Source: Gammaproteobacteria bacterium (GTDB lineage: Bacteria > Pseudomonadota > Gammaproteobacteria > Tenderiales > Tenderiaceae). From it: a stretch of DNA of 10,046 nucleotides. Below are positions 1 to 10,046 of the stretch, piece by piece. The position numbers and the translations under genes were made by a program. The notes under the pieces were generated by a model that saw nothing but the letters and a program-made list of their open reading frames with translations, searched no databases and was not told the origin of the DNA. Position 1 is the first letter of the stretch. The number at the start of each line of letters is the position of its first letter. The stretch is from positions 1 to 10,046 of the forward strand of contig JALTMR010000500.1 of assembly GCA_027001525.1 (NCBI GenBank), given 5' to 3'.

Positions 1-1778
1 TCAATATCTCGGATGTCAGGGTCAATGATCAGGTTTTTATCGTCGGCATTATTCGGGACATCACCTTGCGCAAGCAGGCAGAGGAGAATATGCGTCTCTC
101 GGAGCAGGTGTTTGCCAATAGCGTCGAAGGGATTGTGGTGGCGGACAAAGACAAAAAAATTCTCCGGGCCAATTTTTCCTTTTCCAATATTACCGGCTAC
201 CTGATGTCTGATTTTTCCTGCAAAGGGCTGGACTGCATTCTGGACAGCCAGACGGGGCATGCTGCAAGCGATGAAATTTGGCGAACGGTACAGCGAGACG
301 GGCAGTGGAAGGGAGAGGTTCAGGGGAGCCGCAAAAACGGTGAGCGCTACCTGGCCTGGATGGCCATTGTGGAGACAAAAGATAGCGGTGGGAATGTCAC
401 CCACTACATTGTGGTGATCAACGATATCAGTGAAATAAAAGAAGCTCAGACGCGCATTCACCATCTGGCTAATTTCGATTCGTTGACCAACTTGCCTAAC
501 CGTTCCCTGTTTCAGGATCGGCTGATTCAAGGGGTGGCGCAAGCCGCCCGGTCAGACAAAAAGCTGGCGTTGTTGAGAGTCGATCTGGATCGGTTTAAAA
601 CGCTCAACGAAACCATGGGTCACGGCAGTGGTGACCAGCTATTGAAGTGTGTCGCGGAGCGTCTGAACAGCGTGGTCAGGAAATGCGATACAGTGGGGCG
701 TCTCAGCGGTGACGAGTATGCTCTGATGCTGACAAACCTGGGCACGGATAAAGATGCTGCCCATGTGTCGCGTAAAATTCTGTCGGTGTTTGAGAGCCCG
801 TTCGAGGTGGCTGGTCAGGAGGTTTATGTTACCGCGAGCATCGGCGTGGCGCTCTATCCGAACGATGCCGACAATGCTGATGATCTGATCAAGCACGCTG
901 GTGCAGCAATGCATCACGTCAAGGATCACGGGCGCAACGCTTATCGCTTCTATACGGGGGATCTGGACGCCAGTGCTTTCGAGCATCTGGTGCTGGAGAA
1001 TAGTCTGCGCCGTGCCCTGGGGCGTGAAGAGTTTGTGCTCTTCTACCAGCCGCAGCTGGACCTCAATAGTGGCAAAATCATCGGCGTGGAGGCGTTGATA
1101 CGCTGGAACCATCCGGATCTGGGAATGGTATCCCCCGCTCAGTTTATTCCCCTGCTGGAGGAGACCGGGCTCATTTTACCGGTGGGTGACTGGGTGCTGC
1201 ACACGGCATGTCAGCAGGCACAGGCGTGGATGGAGGCCGGCTTCGACTTTGTTCGTATGGCCGTCAACCTCTCACCCCGCCAGATTGACCAGACTACTTT
1301 AGTCGATACCGTTGCTGAAGCGTTGAGCAGCAGTGGCTTGGATCCGAGACGTCTGGATCTGGAGATCACCGAAAGCAGCTTGATGAGCGATGTAGAGCAG
1401 AGTGTGAGGATGCTCTCTGAACTGCAGCAGATGAAGGTAAATATCTCCATCGACGACTTTGGTACAGGCTACTCTTCACTGAGTTATCTGACCCGCTTCC
1501 CTATCAATACACTGAAAATTGACCGCTCTTTCGTCAAGGATGTAACCGATGATATGGACGATGCCAACCTCGCACGGGCAATTATCACCATGGGGCACAG
1601 CCTCAAACTGAAAGTGTTGGCGGAAGGGGTGGAAACGCCCGAGCAGCTGGAGTTTCTTCGCCAGCACGGATGTGACGAAGTGCAGGGATTCCTCTTCAGC
1701 AAACCGTTGCCTGCGGAAGAGGTGGTGTCCCTGTTCGATAGCGAGATGCGTTCGTTACTCTGCGTTAATGATCAGTAG
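1..1778 (+). CDS. PAS-GGDEF-EAL cyclic-di-GMP turnover protein (5' end outside window)
   Basis: This is a signalling enzyme predicted to make and/or break down cyclic di-GMP in the cytoplasm. The reading frame is open from base 3, so the gene starts upstream of the window. The first visible residues (FIVGIIRDITLRKQAEE, about nt 36-92) are the typical end of a PAS domain. A second PAS domain follows at about nt 90-440. The GGDEF domain begins with FDSLTNLPNR. Its active-site loop reads SGDEY (nt 705-719), a conservative variant of GGDEF, and an RxxD inhibitory site, RKCD (nt 678-689), lies exactly five residues before it. The EAL domain is fully canonical: EALIRW (nt 1089 on), NLSPRQ, an EITES motif, DDFGTGYSS (nt 1452 on), LKIDRSF, AEGVET and QGFLFSKPL. 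Phosphodiesterase activity is therefore very likely; cyclase activity is plausible but less certain. It ends 16 bp from the convergent ettA. The TTG at nt 66 is an internal leucine codon, not a start. Confidence 0.95.
   Translation, partial: NISDVRVNDQVFIVGIIRDITLRKQAEENMRLSEQVFANSVEGIVVADKDKKILRANFSFSNITGYLMSDFSCKGLDCILDSQTGHAASDEIWRTVQRDGQWKGEVQGSRKNGERYLAWMAIVETKDSGGNVTHYIVVINDISEIKEAQTRIHHLANFDSLTNLPNRSLFQDRLIQGVAQAARSDKKLALLRVDLDRFKTLNETMGHGSGDQLLKCVAERLNSVVRKCDTVGRLSGDEYALMLTNLGTDKDAAHVSRKILSVFESPFEVAGQEVYVTASIGVALYPNDADNADDLIKHAGAAMHHVKDHGRNAYRFYTGDLDASAFEHLVLENSLRRALGREEFVLFYQPQLDLNSGKIIGVEALIRWNHPDLGMVSPAQFIPLLEETGLILPVGDWVLHTACQQAQAWMEAGFDFVRMAVNLSPRQIDQTTLVDTVAEALSSSGLDPRRLDLEITESSLMSDVEQSVRMLSELQQMKVNISIDDFGTGYSSLSYLTRFPINTLKIDRSFVKDVTDDMDDANLARAIITMGHSLKLKVLAEGVETPEQLEFLRQHGCDEVQGFLFSKPLPAEEVVSLFDSEMRSLLCVNDQ

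Positions 1779-1794: not shown

Positions 1795-1800
<6 letters not shown>
1788..1800. repeat. Short palindrome at the convergent 3' ends (weak terminator candidate)
   Basis: GACTA-agc-TAGTC, a 5-bp stem with a 3-nt loop, lies in the 16-bp gap and runs over the ettA stop codon. On the + strand a run of five T begins 8 nt after the stem (1808-1812), which is too far and too short for a convincing intrinsic terminator. It is the only structure seen between these convergent genes. Confidence 0.25.
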
Positions 1801-3462
<1,662 letters not shown>

Positions 3463-3788: not shown

Positions 3789-4553
3789 ATGTCCGATCAT
3801 TCAAAGACAGATGATTTTATCGTTCAACAAGCGGATGCTTCGGCAGCGCAGGTTGATCTATCCCTTCTGGATCCCAGTTTTTTGTCTCGGGAGGCTTGGC
3901 TGAGGCCGCCGCCCGTTGAATCCATGGCTCGCGTAGTGGACCATCTGGCACACAAGGTTTCCCGGCATCCCTCCGATCTGATGAGTCATGTTCAGCGTAT
4001 CGCGCTTTGCCATGAGGTGGGGGAAAGTGAGCTCATTTATGGTGCGGTACTCGACCTGTTTATCGCCCTGGGCAATAGCGGGGTCTCGTTACGCACGCGT
4101 ATGCTGCAAAAGGTGGCTGACCTTTTGAGTGACGAGCAGCTTGATGTGTTACAGAAGGGGCTGATATCCGGGGTGAAATCAAATGACACGTTGCCCCTTA
4201 GTCGATACTCCAGATTGAGTGGTGGCGTGGTAGGGGATACCTCATTGGTTGAATATCTCGATACAAGCTCCCAGGCTGAATTCGATACCATTGATGAAGC
4301 TAGGGATTTGATTGACTCAGGTCACATCGAGTTGGCGCAGAAGCTGTTGGAAGAGGCGTTATTGGGGGAGCGAATGCGAGAAGACATCAGCCTGGAGCTC
4401 CTGGAGATATATCGTCATACGCAACATCAGGAAGCATTGTTTGGAATGAGGGAGCGATTGGGTGATGAGCCATTTGCTCTGGCTGATGAATGGGAGGGTC
4501 TCATTAACAGTTTCGCAGTAGAGAAGATGCCGGGAGGCGATGCGGATGAGTAA
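3789..4553 (+). CDS. FimV C-terminal-like TPR scaffold protein
   Basis: This is a 254-residue soluble protein of unproven function. The C-terminal part (about 165-225: DEARDLIDSGHIELAQKLLEE, then ISLELLEIYRHTQHQEAL) has the helix-turn-helix repeat pattern of the FimV C-terminal cytoplasmic domain. In Pseudomonas-type FimV that domain links the cell pole to type IV pilus regulators. Here there is no signal peptide, LysM domain or transmembrane segment, so the protein would be entirely cytoplasmic. The N-terminal half (about 20-150) is largely helical and not recognised. The start ATG has no good Shine-Dalgarno sequence; only a weak AGAG lies 19 nt upstream. No alternative in-frame start precedes residue 46, so the start is kept. 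It overlaps the next gene by 8 nt, which implies translational coupling and a role tied to the receiver-like protein. The FimV relationship is a moderate-confidence pattern match. Confidence 0.75.
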   Translation: MSDHSKTDDFIVQQADASAAQVDLSLLDPSFLSREAWLRPPPVESMARVVDHLAHKVSRHPSDLMSHVQRIALCHEVGESELIYGAVLDLFIALGNSGVSLRTRMLQKVADLLSDEQLDVLQKGLISGVKSNDTLPLSRYSRLSGGVVGDTSLVEYLDTSSQAEFDTIDEARDLIDSGHIELAQKLLEEALLGERMREDISLELLEIYRHTQHQEALFGMRERLGDEPFALADEWEGLINSFAVEKMPGGDADE

Positions 4554-5814
4554 TGGCGTGAATCACTCCTTGCGCTTGGCTGTTTATGGTTTTGATGACC
4601 GCTCTCGTGAGACGCTGAGGTTGGCGTTTGAAGGGCCAGGTAAAGGGTGTGGTGTTCTTGTTGATGATAGCTCCGCTGAAGCGGGTATTTTTAACATGGA
4701 TGCAGCGAATGCGAGTGAGTTGTGGAGCGATTACCGCAGTCGTTTTCCCGAGCGGCCCACTATCATTATGGCAATCAGGGATCCGAACATCGCTGGGACG
4801 TTCTATGTGCCTAAGCCTGTTCGTATCGATGCAATGATCAGGGCTGTAGAGGATGTGCGTCGCGCTATGCCTCATAACCAGGCAGACATGTCCATTGTGC
4901 TGGATTTGGAAGACAGCATACCTGCTGCGGTTCGCGCGGGGGTGGCCACAGCATCGGCAGCGCCGGTTGCGACGGCGAGTGTCGCCGAAGAAGTGGCCGT
5001 TGCGTCGCCAGAGACAGCTGAGCCAGAGGCTGCTGGTGCCTCTGTAGCGCGAGCCGTGCCTGCCGCCGGCACGGTCAAAAAAGAGCCAGTACCTCAGGCC
5101 ATCAAGGCGAGAGTGGCCAGTACACCAAAAGAGACGAGCCGACGCGAGACCTATTACGATCCCCTGGAGTTACTGCAAGGGCAGATACAGGACGCGCTGG
5201 ATCAGGCCAATAAAAAATATGTGGCTGTACAGCTGAATATACAGGTTGATGAAAATGATTGGCAGAGCATCACCTTTCTGCCAGGCGTGAAACGCGTTCT
5301 CACGACACTGAGTGACGAGCAGCTCAAGCATCTATGTAGCACACCTCTGGATCTGTTGAACTGCACGATCAAACGACACAAAGGTGATGAAACCTTCAAT
5401 ATGATCCGTAAGGTGACGGATGAAAAGTCCGGTCAGTCCCTGGATGTCTTCTTGTGGAAGGTTGTGGTGTGGAGCAGCAAGGGGCGTTTGCCTGCCGGCA
5501 CCAATCTTTCCAATCCCGTGAAGTTAAAGCATTGGCCGAATTTGACACGCTTCTATCCCATTCCCAACGCAATGAGAATCGCGACCCTCATTATTGACCA
5601 GCCCAGGCCACTGCCCCTGGTCATCAAGGTGCTGAATTTACCTCAAAGTCATGTGTTTGCTTTTTTCAGCGCCGCGAATGCAATTGGCTTGGTTGCGAAT
5701 AACGAGGGGGTGGGGGCCAGTCCGGTTGCAGAGGCGGCGACTCCTCAGAAGCATAAGCATCATTCGCTGTTTGGTCGCATATTGAAGCGGCTGCGGGGAA
5801 GCGGGGGCGCGTAG
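4546..5814 (+). CDS. Pseudo-receiver protein with Ala-rich linker and C-terminal winged-helix-like domain
   Basis: This 422-residue soluble protein is unlike common response regulators. Residues 9-110 look like a receiver fold. An acidic pair, D17/D18, follows the first strand, D52 sits at the phospho-acceptor position, and K90 lies in a YVPKPVRIDA strand. The Ser/Thr normally found after the fourth strand is replaced (TIIMAI), so phosphorylation is doubtful. Residues about 125-195 are a low-complexity Ala/Val/Glu/Pro linker. Residues about 200-390 form a conserved-looking globular part. It ends in a segment (WPNLTRFYPIPNAMRI to FFSAANAIGLV) patterned like a winged helix. The tail is basic (KRLRGSGGA). 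The ATG at 4546 is preferred over the one at 4540 because GGGAGG (4532-4537) sits 8 nt before it but only 2 nt before the earlier one. It overlaps the upstream gene by 8 nt and precedes the GTPase gene by 41 bp. It may be the effector or adaptor of the GTPase (inference). Confidence 0.8.
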   Translation: MSNGVNHSLRLAVYGFDDRSRETLRLAFEGPGKGCGVLVDDSSAEAGIFNMDAANASELWSDYRSRFPERPTIIMAIRDPNIAGTFYVPKPVRIDAMIRAVEDVRRAMPHNQADMSIVLDLEDSIPAAVRAGVATASAAPVATASVAEEVAVASPETAEPEAAGASVARAVPAAGTVKKEPVPQAIKARVASTPKETSRRETYYDPLELLQGQIQDALDQANKKYVAVQLNIQVDENDWQSITFLPGVKRVLTTLSDEQLKHLCSTPLDLLNCTIKRHKGDETFNMIRKVTDEKSGQSLDVFLWKVVVWSSKGRLPAGTNLSNPVKLKHWPNLTRFYPIPNAMRIATLIIDQPRPLPLVIKVLNLPQSHVFAFFSAANAIGLVANNEGVGASPVAEAATPQKHKHHSLFGRILKRLRGSGGA

Positions 5815-5855
5815 GCTTCTGTATGAGATGGATATCAAAGATATTTAGATAGGCT

Positions 5856-6392
5856 ATGAGTAATTATAAAATAATATTTACCGGCCCGGTGGGCGCCGGA
5901 AAAACAACTGCCATAAGCGCCTTAAGTGATATTCCCGTGGTGGCTACTGATGCAAATGCCACCGATATGACAAGGGAGCGGAAAGAGACCACGACCGTTG
6001 CCATGGACTATGGAATGATGGTGTTGGAGGGTGAGGAGCGCATTCATCTTTATGGTACGCCGGGGCAGGAACGGTTCGATTTTATGTGGGATATTCTGAC
6101 CCAAGGGGGGTTGGGGTTGGTTCTGTTGTTAGACAATACAAGAGCCGATCCTTTTCAGGATATGCGTTTTTTCCTGGATGCATTCAAAGACTTTATCGCT
6201 GAGAGCAAATTGGCGGTAGGGGTAACGCAGATGGACTTGAAGGCGACCCCCACGCTGGATGAGTACCATGCAGAATTGCAAAAACTCAACATCAACCCTC
6301 CGTTGTTTGAGATCGATGCGCGCCGTGAGCAGGATGTTTCGAGGCTTGTCGAGGCGCTGCTGTTTTCGTTAGACCCATGGCTAGGTGAATAA
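5856..6392 (+). CDS. Small Ras-like GTPase, COG2229/CvnD type (MglA-related)
   Basis: This 178-residue protein is a predicted cytoplasmic nucleotide-dependent switch. The P-loop is GPVGAGKTT (10-18). A Thr-rich switch I region follows (RERKETTTVAMDYG, 40-53). Switch II is YGTPGQERF (66-74). It keeps the catalytic-type Gln 71, but Gly 67 stands where DxxG proteins have Asp. The G4 position reads TQMD (124-127) instead of NKxD, and a DAR at 154-156 fills the SAK-like place. The TTTVAMDYG and GTPGQERF patterns match the CvnD-like GTPases of actinobacterial conservons better than Myxococcus MglA. The start at 5856 has only a weak AGG 2 nt upstream. The stop overlaps the next start by one base (TAATG), so the GTPase and the winged-helix/roadblock protein are translationally coupled. 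Roadblock proteins are known regulators of such GTPases, which fits the neighbours on both sides. Confidence 0.92.
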   Translation: MSNYKIIFTGPVGAGKTTAISALSDIPVVATDANATDMTRERKETTTVAMDYGMMVLEGEERIHLYGTPGQERFDFMWDILTQGGLGLVLLLDNTRADPFQDMRFFLDAFKDFIAESKLAVGVTQMDLKATPTLDEYHAELQKLNINPPLFEIDARREQDVSRLVEALLFSLDPWLGE

Positions 6393-7063
6393 TGAGTGAT
6401 TATCAGCTTATAGCGGAACGATACGTAATTCCCACACCTGCTGGGGCCTACTACGCTGTATCGAGCGATTCAAAAGACTTGGCTCGACAGGTTTTGTTTG
6501 GGCTGATGAGTGGCGCTTCCAGTCAAGTTATCACCATAGAGTTAATTGCAGAGCTGACCGGACTTCAGTCTGAGCAGGAGATGCTTGAACTCATTTACCG
6601 GATGCAAAAGCTGGGCTGGATTCAGACTGAAGATCAAGGGCGGGATGGCCCGAGCGGCATGCTTGAGGATATTCTCCCTGAGTTCCTCTCGGTTCTCTCC
6701 GGTTCAGGCAAGGCTCTGTTGGCTGATCAACAGGGATTTTATCTGGCGACGCACGGTTTTTCACATGAAGCAGCCGAGGAGCTGTCTGCCTTGAGTGCTG
6801 ACGTAGCTTCGTTGCATCAGCGCCACAGCGGCTTGTTGCGCAATAACCTGGGCATCGATTCCTCCGCATGGTCTGTTGTGGATGCCTCGGGTGATAGCCA
6901 CCTGGGTTGTTGGCCCGTATTTATCGGCGACCAGCGTTTTAGTTTGGTCCTGGGCGGGGTGCCACAAATGAACCAGATGGCGTTGACAGACCTGGTGTGG
7001 ACCCTAACCAAGCGCTACCGGGGAGCTGAGGCCGAGGAGAGTAGAGAAGCCGGTGCTATGTAA
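6392..7063 (+). CDS. Winged-helix plus roadblock/LC7-like protein, GTPase partner
   Basis: This is a 223-residue soluble protein. Residues about 25-85 form three helices and a short turn patterned like a winged-helix domain (ITIELIAELTGLQSE, LELIYRMQKLGWI). Residues about 98-210 resemble a roadblock/LC7 domain: KALLADQQGFYLATHGF is the typical first strand-turn-strand, a helix follows (AEELSALSADVASL), then paired strands (SHLGCWPVFIGDQRFSLVLGG) and a terminal helix. Roadblock domains such as MglB and CvnB bind Ras-like GTPases as dimers and can act as GAP or scaffold (family knowledge). The start codon overlaps the GTPase stop by one base, with AGGTGA just upstream, so the two products are likely made in equal amounts and interact. 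In conservons a separate DUF742 protein supplies the winged helix; here it is fused to a roadblock domain. Whether it binds DNA is unknown. Confidence 0.82.
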   Translation: MSDYQLIAERYVIPTPAGAYYAVSSDSKDLARQVLFGLMSGASSQVITIELIAELTGLQSEQEMLELIYRMQKLGWIQTEDQGRDGPSGMLEDILPEFLSVLSGSGKALLADQQGFYLATHGFSHEAAEELSALSADVASLHQRHSGLLRNNLGIDSSAWSVVDASGDSHLGCWPVFIGDQRFSLVLGGVPQMNQMALTDLVWTLTKRYRGAEAEESREAGAM

Positions 7064-7191
7064 TCTTCTCAGTCGCCAACACATCGGTTCCTAAAAGGTT
7101 TTAATAAATTGTGGTTATTGGGTCTGCTTCGACGTAAACTGAGACGCCAGTCAAATAAAAGAATAATTAGTTTTAGGGGTGCAATAACGAT
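7064..7191. other. AT-rich intergenic gap within the cluster
   Basis: This 128-bp gap separates the GTPase pair from the protoglobin gene. Its right half (7097-7191) is AT-rich. TAAACT (7135-7140) lies 19 bp after TTGTGG (7110-7115), a poor promoter match. A 7-bp inverted repeat TCTCAGT/ACTGAGA (7067-7073 and 7138-7144) flanks the interval. No intrinsic terminator was seen. An internal promoter is possible but not shown. Confidence 0.3.
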
Positions 7192-7755
7192 ATGGATAAT
7201 GTCGACTTTGATGAGCTGATGGATCACGCCAAGCGCTTTTCTGGACTGACACCGGAGAGGGAGTCCCTGCTGGTGGCCTCCGGCGACACGGTTCGGCCTC
7301 GGTTGCAAGAGGTTACCGATAATTTTTATGCGATGTTGCTGTCGATCCCCAAAACGGCCGTTCATTTAGAGGGGCGTGTAGAGTCGCTCAAAGCGACGCA
7401 TTTACAGTGGTTAACCAGTCTTTTTACTGGTCCTTACGATGTAGAGTACACTGCTGCCATGTATGCGGTGGGGGATGCCCATGTGAGGGTCAAGCTGCCC
7501 GTCGAGTTCATGGCGGGGGGCATGTGCCTGATTCAAAATGAGTTGGCTCGTATTGCGGGAGAGGTCAGTGGTGGAGATGTCGATAAAACGGTATCCCTTG
7601 TTAGTGCTATTAACTCGGTATTAGGGTTCTCTCTGATGGTAATGCAGGAGTCTTATCAGTCATCATCATTAGCAGAGGAATTGGATAGATTTTTGGCAAT
7701 TACGGGTATGAGTCGGGTGTTATTCAATAACCTGGCTGATGCTTATCAGATTTAA
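7192..7755 (+). CDS. Stand-alone protoglobin (globin-coupled-sensor heme domain)
   Basis: This 187-residue protein is predicted to be a cytoplasmic heme protein that senses O2 or another gaseous ligand. Residues about 35-175 follow the globin-coupled-sensor pattern. LQEVTDNFYAMLL gives the B/C helix region and THLQWLTSLFTGPYD the E-helix region. The hallmark F/G segment is VGDAHVRVKLPVEFMAGGM (93-111). Its His 97 aligns with the proximal heme ligand in the family motif (HxRIGL followed by a Y/M-containing helix). No kinase, cyclase or methyl-accepting domain follows, so the signal must pass to another protein. The start ATG is preceded by AGGGG (7175-7179) at a long 12-nt spacing, suggesting modest translation. 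It lies 23 bp upstream of the roadblock gene, which points to the GTPase/roadblock switch as the likely partner (inference). An enzymatic role for the heme, or heme-free function, cannot be excluded. Confidence 0.88.
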   Translation: MDNVDFDELMDHAKRFSGLTPERESLLVASGDTVRPRLQEVTDNFYAMLLSIPKTAVHLEGRVESLKATHLQWLTSLFTGPYDVEYTAAMYAVGDAHVRVKLPVEFMAGGMCLIQNELARIAGEVSGGDVDKTVSLVSAINSVLGFSLMVMQESYQSSSLAEELDRFLAITGMSRVLFNNLADAYQI

Positions 7756-7778
7756 TTATATAACCAGGAGTAACTAAT

Positions 7779-8141
7779 ATGCGTTCTGATTTGTTGACCT
7801 CCATACTCAGCGACTTAAACGGAAGCTCGGCAGATATTGAGGCATCTTCAGTCATCTCGACAGATGGTTTGATGATGGCTGCAATGCTCCCCTCCGGTTT
7901 GGACGAGGATCGAGTCGGGGCCATGGGCGCAGCCATGCTCTCCCTGGGTGACCGGACGGCGCAGGAGTTGGCTCGGGGCTCCTTGGAGCAGGTGTTGATC
8001 AAGGGTGACAACGGTTACGTGCTGATGACGCATGCAGGTAAAGAAGCTGTTCTCTCTGTCCTGGCCAAGCCGAGTGCCCGTTTGGGTTTGATTTTTCTCG
8101 ATGTTAAACGCGCTGCCGAGGCAATCTCTAAAGTGCTGTAG
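7779..8141 (+). CDS. Roadblock/LC7 domain protein, MglB/CvnB-like
   Basis: This 120-residue protein consists of one roadblock/LC7 domain. It starts with a helix (LLTSILSDLNGSSADIEA), then the diagnostic strand-turn-strand (SVISTDGLMMAAMLP, about 24-38). A long helix follows (DEDRVGAMGAAMLSLGDRTAQEL), then the central strands (SLEQVLIKGDNGYVLMTHAG, EAVLSVLAKP) and the final strand-helix (LGLIFLDVKRAAEAISKVL). Length and layout match MglB and CvnB, which dimerise and regulate Ras-like GTPases. The start has a strong AGGAG (7766-7770) 8 nt upstream, one of the best ribosome-binding sites in the cluster, so this is probably an abundant subunit. It lies 23 bp after the protoglobin gene and is followed by a hairpin at 8147-8177. 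It likely pairs with the GTPase at 5856-6392; partnership with the protoglobin is also plausible (inference). Confidence 0.93.
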   Translation: MRSDLLTSILSDLNGSSADIEASSVISTDGLMMAAMLPSGLDEDRVGAMGAAMLSLGDRTAQELARGSLEQVLIKGDNGYVLMTHAGKEAVLSVLAKPSARLGLIFLDVKRAAEAISKVL

Positions 8142-8146
8142 TGCCA

Positions 8147-8177
8147 ATATGTGGTGCTCATCAACATCACCACGTAT
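8147..8177 (+). terminator. Stem-loop after the roadblock gene (possible attenuator or processing site)
   Basis: ATATGTGGTG (8147-8156) and CACCACGTAT (8168-8177) form a 10-bp stem with one G-U pair and an 11-nt loop, beginning 5 nt after the stop codon. The following 20 nt are A-rich, not T-rich, so this is not a classic intrinsic terminator. It could protect the upstream mRNA 3' end or partly attenuate transcription. Confidence 0.4.
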
Positions 8178-8206
8178 ACAAAACAATAAAATAATAGACT
8201 GTGCAA

Positions 8207-8221
8207 GGCTTTTGGAAAGCC
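8207..8221 (+). promoter_or_regulatory. Hairpin just before the PAS gene ribosome-binding site
   Basis: GGCTTT-tgg-AAAGCC is a perfect 6-bp stem with a 3-nt loop. It ends 10 nt before the AGGA (8232-8235) that serves the start at 8244. It could affect translation or act as an operator. A TAAAAT at 8187-8192 resembles a -10 box, but no convincing -35 box precedes it. Confidence 0.3.
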
Positions 8222-8243
8222 AACTGAGGGTAGGAATCAGCGT

Positions 8244-8720
8244 ATGGTGGTGGATATGAGTCCCGATGATCTCATCGGAGAGCATAGAGAGGTGTTGTTA
8301 AAGTACCATGATGGCACGGTGCGCCAGGTACTTGTCACCGACGTGGAGACACCGATGCCCGACGGGCGACTGATTGTTTCACGCACTGACCCGCAAGGGC
8401 TGATCACGCACGTTAATCAGTCTTTTATCGAGATGGCCGGGTATCCGGAAGAAGAGTTGATTGGCGCTCCGCACTACATTTTACGCCATCCAGATATGCC
8501 TGCTGCTGCTTTCAAAATGCTATGGGATACTTTGAAAGAGAATAAGAAGTGGCATGGTTATGTAAAAAACCTGAGAAAAGACGGCGGTTACTACTGGGTT
8601 TACGCCACAGTGATTCCAAATATTCGCGGTGGGCAGCTTATGGGGTATACCTCGGTACGGCGTAAACCCTCACGAACAAAGGTCAGGGAAGCTGAGGAAT
8701 TGTATAGGACGTTGAGCTGA
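8244..8720 (+). CDS. Stand-alone Aer-type PAS protein, predicted FAD redox sensor
   Basis: This is a 158-residue soluble protein. Residues about 42-150 closely follow the FAD-binding PAS domain of the E. coli aerotaxis receptor Aer: NQSFIEMAGYPEEELIGAPH, then RHPDMPAAAFKMLWDTLK, then W-x-G-x-VKN-x-RKDGGYYWV, with a GYTSVRRKP end. The Aer residues needed for FAD binding and signalling are kept with a constant offset of 24: R57, H58, D60 and W79 become R81, H82, D84 and W103. Aer then has an F1 linker, membrane segments, HAMP and a chemoreceptor domain; none is present here and the protein stops soon after the PAS domain. The first 40 residues are an extra, acidic extension. AGGA lies 8 nt before the chosen ATG; a second ATG at 8256 is possible. 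It probably reports flavin redox state or electron-transport status to another cluster protein (inference). Confidence 0.92.
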   Translation: MVVDMSPDDLIGEHREVLLKYHDGTVRQVLVTDVETPMPDGRLIVSRTDPQGLITHVNQSFIEMAGYPEEELIGAPHYILRHPDMPAAAFKMLWDTLKENKKWHGYVKNLRKDGGYYWVYATVIPNIRGGQLMGYTSVRRKPSRTKVREAEELYRTLS

Positions 8721-8774
8721 AGTTGGTGGTCGGATTCTCGATTGCAGGTGCTTTAACGTGTTGGAGTGTGCGTG

Positions 8775-9521
8775 ATGACATACAATTTTACCGTTAGTCC
8801 CGATTTTAATCCTAACCACCTTTCCGGTTGGTTTATTTTCAATACCTGGCTGCAAAAGGCGATTGGTGAAGGTATTCACCTGGAGCTGTTTGATGACTTT
8901 GACAGCCAGCGTCGAGCGATCGCCGACAACCAGTTTGATCTGATCTACGCTAATCCCTACGACGCCAGTTTGCTGGTACGTGAGAAGGGCTTTTTGCCGT
9001 TGGTCAGTCCACAAAACAAATCGGATGAGGCAATTATTGCCGTGCGTGCTGATTGTCCCGCTCACGTTGTGGAGGATTTGAAGCCCGGCCTGCGTATTTC
9101 CTCAACGGATGATCCCGATGTCAATATGATGTGCATGATCATGCTGGAGCCCTGTGATTTGAGTGCAGAAAACACAGTGCTTCATCGCAGTGATACCTAT
9201 GTCATCGTGGCCAAAAACCTGATTCAGGGGGATGCTGACGTCGGCTTCTTTCTCGAGGAGACGTACAGCGAACTCTCCAATATGATCCGTTCTCAGTTGC
9301 GCCCATTGGTGCAGAGCCAGATTCAGGTGATTAATCATGTGCTTTTGGTGGGGCCCCGTCTGATCCACATGCGTGAAACGATGGGGAATGCCTTGATGAC
9401 CATGACGCAGGAAGAGAAGGGGCAGGGCGTGTTGGAGAGCCTGGGGTTTTCCGGTTGGGAAACGGTTAGCGAGGAAGATACCGAGTTCATGATTGATCTG
9501 ATGGATACGCTGGAAGACTGA
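8775..9521 (+). CDS. PhnD/SsuA-like substrate-binding fold without signal peptide
   Basis: This 248-residue protein has the fold pattern of periplasmic phosphonate/taurine-type binding proteins (PhnD-like). A first strand (FTVSPDFNP) and the helix (GWFIFNTWLQKAIG) begin the lobe. ELFDDFDSQRRAIADNQFDLIYANPYDASLLVREKGF matches the family's 'F.IAYvGP..y' region, with the hinge strands following (AIIAVRADCP, LRISSTDD). Family members are exported and carry a signal peptide; here the first core strand begins at residue 3, so the protein should stay in the cytoplasm. The C-terminal 70 residues (about 178-248) are helical and acidic. The ATG at 8775 is preferred because GGAG (8763-8766) sits 8 nt upstream; GTG codons at 8766 and 8772 are less likely starts. 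No transporter genes are adjacent, so it is more likely a small-molecule sensor module than a transport component (inference). Confidence 0.8.
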   Translation: MTYNFTVSPDFNPNHLSGWFIFNTWLQKAIGEGIHLELFDDFDSQRRAIADNQFDLIYANPYDASLLVREKGFLPLVSPQNKSDEAIIAVRADCPAHVVEDLKPGLRISSTDDPDVNMMCMIMLEPCDLSAENTVLHRSDTYVIVAKNLIQGDADVGFFLEETYSELSNMIRSQLRPLVQSQIQVINHVLLVGPRLIHMRETMGNALMTMTQEEKGQGVLESLGFSGWETVSEEDTEFMIDLMDTLED

Positions 9522-9549: not shown

Positions 9550-10046
9550 TTAAATTACCCGTTCATTCCCTCCGTCCATGGGAATCTGTGCTGCGGTTGT
9601 TTTCGCAAAGCGTGGCCCACATAACTCGGCAGTGAGTTCCGCCACGTCCTGACTGGTAATCTCAGTTTTCAGCACATTTTTTGTCTTGTATTGCTCGACG
9701 CTCAGGCCGTAATGCCTGGCGCGGGCCTGTAGTACTTCTTCTGTCCAAATGCCCGTGTCGAACACCGCATCCGGGTGGAGTTCATTCAGGCGAATGCCAT
9801 CTTGCCCCCATTCCAGTGCAGCGACTCGCATGAGTTGGGTGAGCGCAGCTTTGGAAGCCGAGTAGGCAGCCGCCCCAGGGCCCGGTGCCGGGACGTTCTT
9901 TGAGCCCATCACCACTACACGACCACCCTTGGGTGCCAGTTTCAGCAGAGGGTGTGCCTCGCGCATTAACACCAGATTGGCTTCCAGGTTTACGCTCATG
10001 ACGTTGCGCCAAGTGTTGGTGTCGAGGGCGTCAATACGGCATCCGC
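9550..10046 (-). CDS. Short-chain dehydrogenase, probably C-terminal half of a bifunctional aldolase/SDR (5' end outside window)
   Basis: The last 165 residues of an NAD(P)-dependent SDR oxidoreductase are visible, and the frame stays open to the right edge, so the start lies outside. The catalytic motif YSASK is present in AAYSASKAALTQLMRVAALEW. The preceding strand RVVVMGSKN supplies a likely catalytic Ser, and the chain ends in the usual PMDGG motif followed by NERVI. The segment LHPDAVFDTGIWTEEVLQAR with a later YKTKNVLKTEITSQDVAEL is characteristic of the SDR part of fused class II aldolase/dehydrogenase proteins of the RhaEW/YuxG kind, which act on rhamnulose- or other deoxysugar-phosphate products. 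The aldolase half would be upstream, beyond the window. It is convergent with the sensory cluster and probably unrelated to it. SDR is near certain; the fusion is inferred. Confidence 0.85.
   Translation of the reverse strand, partial: GCRIDALDTNTWRNVMSVNLEANLVLMREAHPLLKLAPKGGRVVVMGSKNVPAPGPGAAAYSASKAALTQLMRVAALEWGQDGIRLNELHPDAVFDTGIWTEEVLQARARHYGLSVEQYKTKNVLKTEITSQDVAELTAELCGPRFAKTTAAQIPMDGGNERVI

Follow-up and report, generated by a model that had tools for sequence, protein, structure and literature searches.

A predicted operon with a Group 3 MglA-like core and a cassette of stand-alone cytosolic sensors in a gammaproteobacterium of the Tenderiaceae

Introduction

Group 3 MglA systems, as described by Wuichet and Sogaard-Andersen in 2014 (PMC4316618), combine an MglA homologue and one or two MglB homologues with a conserved protein that has a receiver-like N-terminus, a variable linker and a winged helix at its C-terminus, and they occur almost exclusively in beta- and gammaproteobacteria. 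The G4 motif of their GTPases is often without the lysine, the G5 motif is DAR, and a transcription output has been proposed for them by the same authors (PMC4316618). Here, a predicted operon of eight genes (positions 3789 to 9521) is analysed that is located in the window, by which the whole stretch of 10,046 nucleotides of contig JALTMR010000500.1 is meant (assembly GCA_027001525.1, a gammaproteobacterium of the Tenderiaceae). The best explanation of the whole, which we consider moderately probable, is a Group 3 MglA small-GTPase operon with a cytosolic sensor cassette, in which roadblock proteins link the sensors to the GTPase.

Other described systems share parts of this inventory. The conservons, or actinobacterial G-protein systems (CvnA-D with CvnE/CvnF), have a DAR GTPase (PMC4316618), a roadblock GTPase-activating protein (GAP) and a further regulator, and some members have stand-alone accessory proteins (GAF, P450), such as the GAF protein CvnF8, which binds and stimulates the kinase CvnA8 (PMC13343842). 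In the Mfp system, the CvnB homologue is the GAP and the CvnC homologue the probable guanine nucleotide exchange factor for MfpB (PMC13343842). The Myxococcus polarity module (MglA/MglB/RomR/SgmX) has the same parts list of GTPase, roadblock proteins, receiver protein and TPR effector as the window, an effector of MglA-GTP being SgmX, a likely cytoplasmic TPR protein (PMC7519303), but its GTPase belongs to Group 1 and its response-regulator partners are encoded away from mglA (PMC4316618). Colonisation by Snodgrassella was changed by an orphan mglB allele, an effect that may involve pili (PMC11112851). HGbRL of Methylacidiphilum is a fusion of a globin with a roadblock domain and is encoded in an operon with a methyltransferase (PMC4476040).

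Gene content and conservation of the operon

The eight genes, all on the forward strand, are the following.

3789..4553, +, TPR-like cytosolic protein, first gene of the operon (open reading frame; present in 55 of 56 well-flanked relatives)
4540..5814, +, receiver, variable linker and C-terminal region with three helices at its end (corresponding to the receiver/winged-helix protein of the Group 3 systems)
5856..6392, +, MglA-family small GTPase, predicted Group 3 type (Pfam Ras/ATP_bind_1)
6392..7063, +, roadblock domain preceded in the same protein by a helical, possibly winged-helix, N-terminal domain (roadblock fold by model comparison)
7192..7755, +, stand-alone protoglobin of 187 amino acids, optional (PF11563, E 3e-23)
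7779..8141, +, single-domain roadblock (MglB-like) protein of 120 amino acids (PF03259)
8244..8720, +, stand-alone Aer-type (flavin adenine dinucleotide type) PAS protein of 158 amino acids (Aer PAS 8dik, E 1.8e-36)
8775..9521, +, PhnD-like solute-binding fold without signal peptide (PF12974, E 5e-37; listed start GTG 8766, likely start ATG 8775)

The eight-gene arrangement given in the original prediction is real, and its conservation has been assessed in two samples. The near-relative set is made up of the 80 best-matching of 511 genome loci with a gene for the GTPase, chiefly from Methylococcales, plus some Chromatiaceae-labelled bins and bivalve symbionts; 56 of these loci are well-flanked and were counted, and 24 were excluded for too short flanks. 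The class sample consists of 369 genomes drawn from Gammaproteobacteria, in which relatives of the roadblock protein are found in 70 genomes (E<=1e-3), of the GTPase in 62 (E<=1e-20), of the PhnD-like protein in 28 (E<=1e-10) and of the protoglobin in 11 (E<=1e-10). It provides 42 roadblock loci, 30 of them well-flanked and 12 excluded for short flanks; the excluded ones include L109 (FIST) and L108 (CZB). Flanking genes were grouped by clustering, and most have no annotation.

Among the 56 near relatives, the receiver/winged-helix gene is found in 56, the TPR, roadblock fusion and single roadblock genes in 55 each and the protoglobin gene in five; PAS and PhnD accompany the core in 53. The order TPR, receiver, GTPase, roadblock fusion, roadblock, PAS, PhnD is identical in 46 of the 56. 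When considering the 30 class loci, the counts are 26 for TPR, 29 for the receiver, 25 for the GTPase, 26 for the roadblock fusion, 11 each for PAS and PhnD and six for the protoglobin.

In the co-localisation counts of the class sample, "beside" means within 4.5 kb, and by arithmetic chance would place a random gene this near to one given gene about 0.3% of the time in a 3-Mb genome. Omitted are own-genome rows other than those on contigs C148 and C218, GTPase rows below 140 bits and fourteen roadblock rows below 35 bits. Of the 27 closest class GTPases (>=235 bits), 26 have a roadblock relative within 4.5 kb; in the 150-200-bit bin a roadblock neighbour is found in at least 21 of 27, a lower bound, as weak roadblock rows are omitted. 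All 15 PhnD orthologues (>190 bits) adjoin a roadblock gene, versus none of 11 weaker relatives, the omitted PhnD rows being the window's own, the second piece of the G074 gene, a G146 paralogue (55 bits, inside the operon) and the weak rows of G051, G080 and G081, three genomes without a match in the class roadblock search. These counts, by which the original prediction was to be upheld or refuted, support a single system that has a core of roadblock proteins and GTPase together with separate sensors of heme and flavin type, and the eight genes are supported as one unit.

The core proteins compared with Group 3 MglA systems

Over 82 aligned GTPase rows, the G1 (GPVGAGKTT), G3 (YGTPGQERF) and G5 (DAR) motifs are near-invariant, DAR being kept in 81 rows, the window included. 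The second residue of G4 is Q in 72 rows, R in nine and H in one, and never K; the G4 of the window, TQMD, departs from [NT]KxD. The adjacent gene encodes the protein with a receiver-like N-terminus and a variable linker, and two coupled MglB homologues are present, the single-domain protein (PF03259) and the fusion protein 6392-7063 with its roadblock fold. Because the G4 motif without lysine, the DAR motif, the receiver protein and the roadblock neighbours all match the published description (PMC4316618), the operon core is, as predicted by motif and neighbourhood, a Group 3 MglA system, the GTPase tree covering the fetched relatives only. The gammaproteobacterial origin is also in agreement with this assignment. 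The fusion protein may be one of the second MglB proteins of Group 3, or it may not (PMC4316618). The window differs from the description by the TPR-like protein and the stand-alone sensor cassette, neither of which is mentioned in its available part (PMC4316618).

Group 3 MglA systems are therefore closer to the window than the conservons, to which the core had been likened in the original prediction along with MglA/MglB. Membership in the conservons is rejected, as the eight genes include no CvnA histidine kinase and the phylum is another one; the sensors also differ, and a receiver/winged-helix protein is present. The closest loci are from Gammaproteobacteria, chiefly Methylococcales, and none is actinobacterial. 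The idea that the helical domain of the fusion protein corresponds to CvnC/DUF742 is not substantiated by a Pfam match.

The single-domain roadblock protein is strongly conserved, with 56-85% identity in the 41 places in other genomes above 130 bits, and its relatives number 2296 database proteins at E<=0.001.

In the model of the 4540-5814 protein, a receiver fold is recovered by fold comparison for residues 9-115, and the C-terminal region has helices at residues 344-353, 358-365 and 369-381; the Pfam matches in this region are stray. The phosphorylation quartet (D19, D52, S/T78, K92) is kept completely in 56 of 72 rows, and Asn occupies the acceptor position 52 in eight, the window and seven others. 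The term pseudo-receiver, as first applied to this protein, is thus appropriate for the window and a few close rows (N52) but not for the family. It is possible that phosphorylation is an extra input in the relatives that may have been lost in the window.

For the TPR-like protein, some of the 39 family members have weak matches to TPR families (LapB/PilW/FimV_Cterm), and the window protein itself has no TPR-family match. Its comparison with FimV (4mal) gives only a trace (E 0.087), and these family matches are weak and generic, so that a specifically FimV-C-like nature is not upheld.

The sensor proteins

The protoglobin keeps Tyr46 and His97 in 19 of 19 rows (the split gene of L062 omitted); the motif alignments comprised a first set of seven protoglobin rows and an extended set of 19. 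No transmitter domain is found by Pfam fused to the protein, as would be seen in a globin-coupled sensor. Protoglobins above 75 bits adjoin a roadblock gene in seven of nine places in the class sample, one being the second copy in the window's own genome. The protoglobin gene lies upstream of the roadblock gene in the window, L064, L098, L110, L111, L113 and L114, and downstream of it in L096, L062 and one Methylobacter-type clade of five (support 100/100). The predicted heme input is in agreement with this adjacency, but it is an optional one, being found in five of 56 near relatives and six of 30 class loci. HGbRL likewise combines a heme globin with a roadblock domain, with the difference that the proteins of the window are separate. 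The HGbRL globin is, we assume, of a different globin family from the protoglobin.

The PAS protein shares the RHPDMP motif with the Aer aerotaxis receptor and is Aer-like, with a predicted flavin; RHPDMP and W118-V119 are at least 95% conserved over 70 rows. It differs from Aer in being free-standing, as only PAS matches, and no HAMP or methyl-accepting domain, are found by Pfam. To our knowledge, no heme or flavin sensors are known in the Myxococcus polarity module.

The PhnD-like protein has conserved SPDF and NP motifs, and a hydrophobic N-terminus, as expected of an exported protein, is seen by hydropathy in none of 57 rows. It is predicted to be a cytosolic ligand-binding fold and a constant companion of the PAS protein: PAS and PhnD are never apart, occurring together in all 14 carriers among the 42 roadblock loci. 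As members of the system they are well supported in the near relatives (53 of 56), but they are absent from 19 of the 30 class loci. Since the protoglobin is optional and PAS and PhnD are missing in these 19 loci, the sensors are exchangeable parts, the protoglobin above all, and the same core is used elsewhere with CZB, FIST and kinase modules.

Further globins adjoin distant roadblock genes: in L131, L142 and L143 these are protoglobins, and in L129 it is a truncated globin. CZB is found beside the roadblock gene in L106 (Pfam) and L108 (cluster member), and FIST in L109 (Pfam) and L112 (cluster member). An MCP signalling protein is encoded near L121's roadblock gene and a GAF histidine kinase near that of L113.

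A second protoglobin-roadblock pair is present in the window's own genome on contig C148 (L087, 4482-5447), with a roadblock protein 87% and a protoglobin 52% identical to the window copies. This contig of 6.9 kb has no GTPase and none of the other operon genes. Such a pair, in which the sensor has diverged and the roadblock protein is little changed, would be in line with a second input that reaches this core. The bin, which is incomplete, has two Pfam roadblock matches.

Proposed mechanism and alternatives

On the basis of the genes, two folds, the motifs and the conserved co-localisation, all of which are observed, it is proposed that homo- or heterodimers of the two roadblock proteins would set the GTP/GDP state of the GTPase, by analogy with MglB, the GAP for MglA, and with the CvnB/CvnC homologues acting on MfpB. 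The stand-alone sensors (PAS with its constant PhnD-like partner, and the optional protoglobin) would dock on the roadblock proteins, whose activity would then vary with oxygen, a small ligand or the redox state. The path from sensor to roadblock to GTPase is the simplest one because the sensor genes are neighbours of the single-domain roadblock gene and because of the HGbRL fusion. The GTPase would then control the receiver/winged-helix protein, most likely a transcription regulator, and this protein suggests a transcription output. The TPR-like protein could be a scaffold or a second effector.

Several observations weigh against this explanation. PAS, PhnD and protoglobin are all missing from L005, which is the nearest relative (79% GTPase identity), and from L056, and 14 of the 30 class loci have neither sensor type, these including the orphan roadblock locus L104, the TPR-less L124, L127 and L128, and the CZB/FIST-bearing L106 and L112; in L042 only receiver genes and the GTPase are kept. 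A GTPase is near in 33 of the 42 roadblock loci (31 by search rows). L100, L113 and L114 keep TPR, receiver and both roadblock genes without a detectable GTPase, nor does the search of their genomes give a GTPase match at E<=1e-20; this argues against a strictly GTPase-centred view. Two of the nine protoglobins (L145, L146) are away from any roadblock gene. The window receiver (N52, A78) is without the usual acceptor Asp. When the profiles of the two roadblock families are compared, the match is weak (probability 3%), and the roadblock assignment of 6392-7063 comes from the predicted fold, not from the profile comparison. A 128-bp gap precedes the protoglobin gene, and promoter-like sites in the window are at chance level (8 versus 6.5 expected). 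Apart from these observations, the PAS gene is preceded by a gap of 102 bp, terminator-like sites number 11 versus 5.7 expected, and nothing reached the gathering score in an Rfam search of the window.

A polarity or type IV pilus switch is an unlikely alternative, although it survives better than the others. The GTPase would recruit the TPR-like protein as MglA-GTP recruits SgmX (PMC7519303) and set the place or timing of the pili in response to oxygen or redox state, and the winged helices would be protein-binding parts. The effect of the Snodgrassella orphan mglB allele on colonisation (PMC11112851) and the weak PilW/FimV-type TPR matches would fit, but these matches are generic. PilT exceeds the family cut-off in all 40 carrier genomes, but it does so in 32 of the 40 non-carriers as well (34 of 40 at E<=1e-60), the latter having been picked by number, unmatched for kinship and genome size, and some being small, so that this association carries little information and the earlier proposal of pili or polarity as the output is not supported. 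FliG is found in 33 of 40 carriers and 20 of 40 non-carriers; a flagellum is thus not required, as the pilus switch would allow, and flagellar output as a requirement is rejected. The PilT and FliG counts favour neither output decisively.

It is improbable that the system is a nutrient or ligand sensor in which the cytosolic PhnD-like protein is the main input, for phosphonate, phosphate or another small ligand, and PAS a modifier only. The constant association of PhnD with PAS, the missing hydrophobic N-terminus and the conserved SPDF and NP motifs agree with it, but globins recur beside roadblock genes, the PAS protein keeps the RHPDMP motif of Aer and the 19 class loci have no PhnD. That the core (receiver/winged-helix protein, GTPase and roadblock) is the whole system, with PAS, PhnD and protoglobin as neighbours with unrelated work, is very improbable: the 14 loci with neither sensor type, both intergenic gaps and the two separate protoglobins speak for it, whereas in the 369 genomes 15 of 15 PhnD orthologues and seven of nine protoglobins adjoin a roadblock gene, and the pair on C148 occurs without the other operon genes.

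The preferred explanation, a Group 3 MglA operon with a sensor cassette, may be extended to a widespread gammaproteobacterial class of G-protein systems, which we put forward tentatively. In this class, the conserved roadblock protein would be a socket for interchangeable, freely diffusing cytosolic sensors (two heme globin families, flavin PAS with PhnD-like, CZB, FIST), unlinked sensor-roadblock pairs included, and these would feed a GTPase controlling the receiver/winged-helix regulator. If true, this would be a small-GTPase counterpart of two-component signalling with plug-in inputs. The switch core is already known, the Group 3 systems having been catalogued in 2014 without a shown input or output, and the heme, flavin and ligand sensors provide concrete candidate inputs, by which the input question becomes testable in cultured methanotrophs; Methylomonas sp. 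LW13 (L013) and Methylotuvimicrobium buryatense (L072) are two that have the operon. The sensor cassette also has a parallel in recent work on stand-alone accessory proteins of the actinobacterial G-protein systems. As conserved and exchangeable neighbours of the core, the sensors look newly described: among the literature matches listed (titles and abstract starts, no supplementary tables) the cassette and the eight-gene set are undescribed, an earlier mention being possible, and no experiment on members of the sensor-bearing variant is found among these matches.

Variant loci, paralogues and flanking genes

The statement that there is no histidine kinase is correct for the eight window genes (Pfam) but does not extend to the homologous loci. 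In L109, L112 and L116, a Hanks-type Ser/Thr kinase is fused N-terminally to the GTPase; the three genomes belong to different families, and the fusion gene has the usual operon position. In L130 (12368-15154, minus strand), a frame of 929 amino acids contains GAF and HisKA_2 and ends in a part that matches the receiver/winged-helix family in its C-terminal half. An AAA ATPase is joined to the roadblock domain in L133.

Other arrangements are also seen. Distant roadblock genes are followed by an ODP-family protein in L133 (7465-9973; Pfam) and L138 (8228-10331; cluster membership), with a cytochrome c gene upstream in L138. In L100, a frame of 405 amino acids, PhnD-like from residue 166, lies between both roadblock genes. 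L129 (9436-14937, minus strand) has receiver/winged-helix and GTPase genes, then an ABC ATPase/protein-phosphatase fusion, a small unknown protein, the truncated globin and a roadblock protein. In L039 of Methyloprofundus, a tandem second system starts at 13781, in which another PAS-PhnD pair comes first and a diverged pair of receiver/winged-helix and GTPase genes comes next. L143 (G077:C121) is a second set of receiver/winged-helix, roadblock, protoglobin, TPR and roadblock fusion, with no GTPase on the stretch, and the PAS/PhnD operon of G077 is on a separate contig (L090).

The window's own genome has three further GTPase genes, with 56%, 58% and 49% identity, located in L085 (G000:C273, 10343-10939) and L086 (G000:C455, 370-933 and 1825-2376); no roadblock or receiver gene is recognised beside them. 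The two paralogues on C455 flank what we take to be an MsrA-like gene.

The operon is flanked in the window by a PAS-GGDEF-EAL protein (66-1778, plus strand; Pfam), by what is presumably an ABC-F (EttA-like) ATPase (1795-3462, minus strand) and, on the other side, by what we take to be a short-chain dehydrogenase (9550-9999, minus strand). The cluster containing the flanking ABC ATPase recurs in 11 loci.

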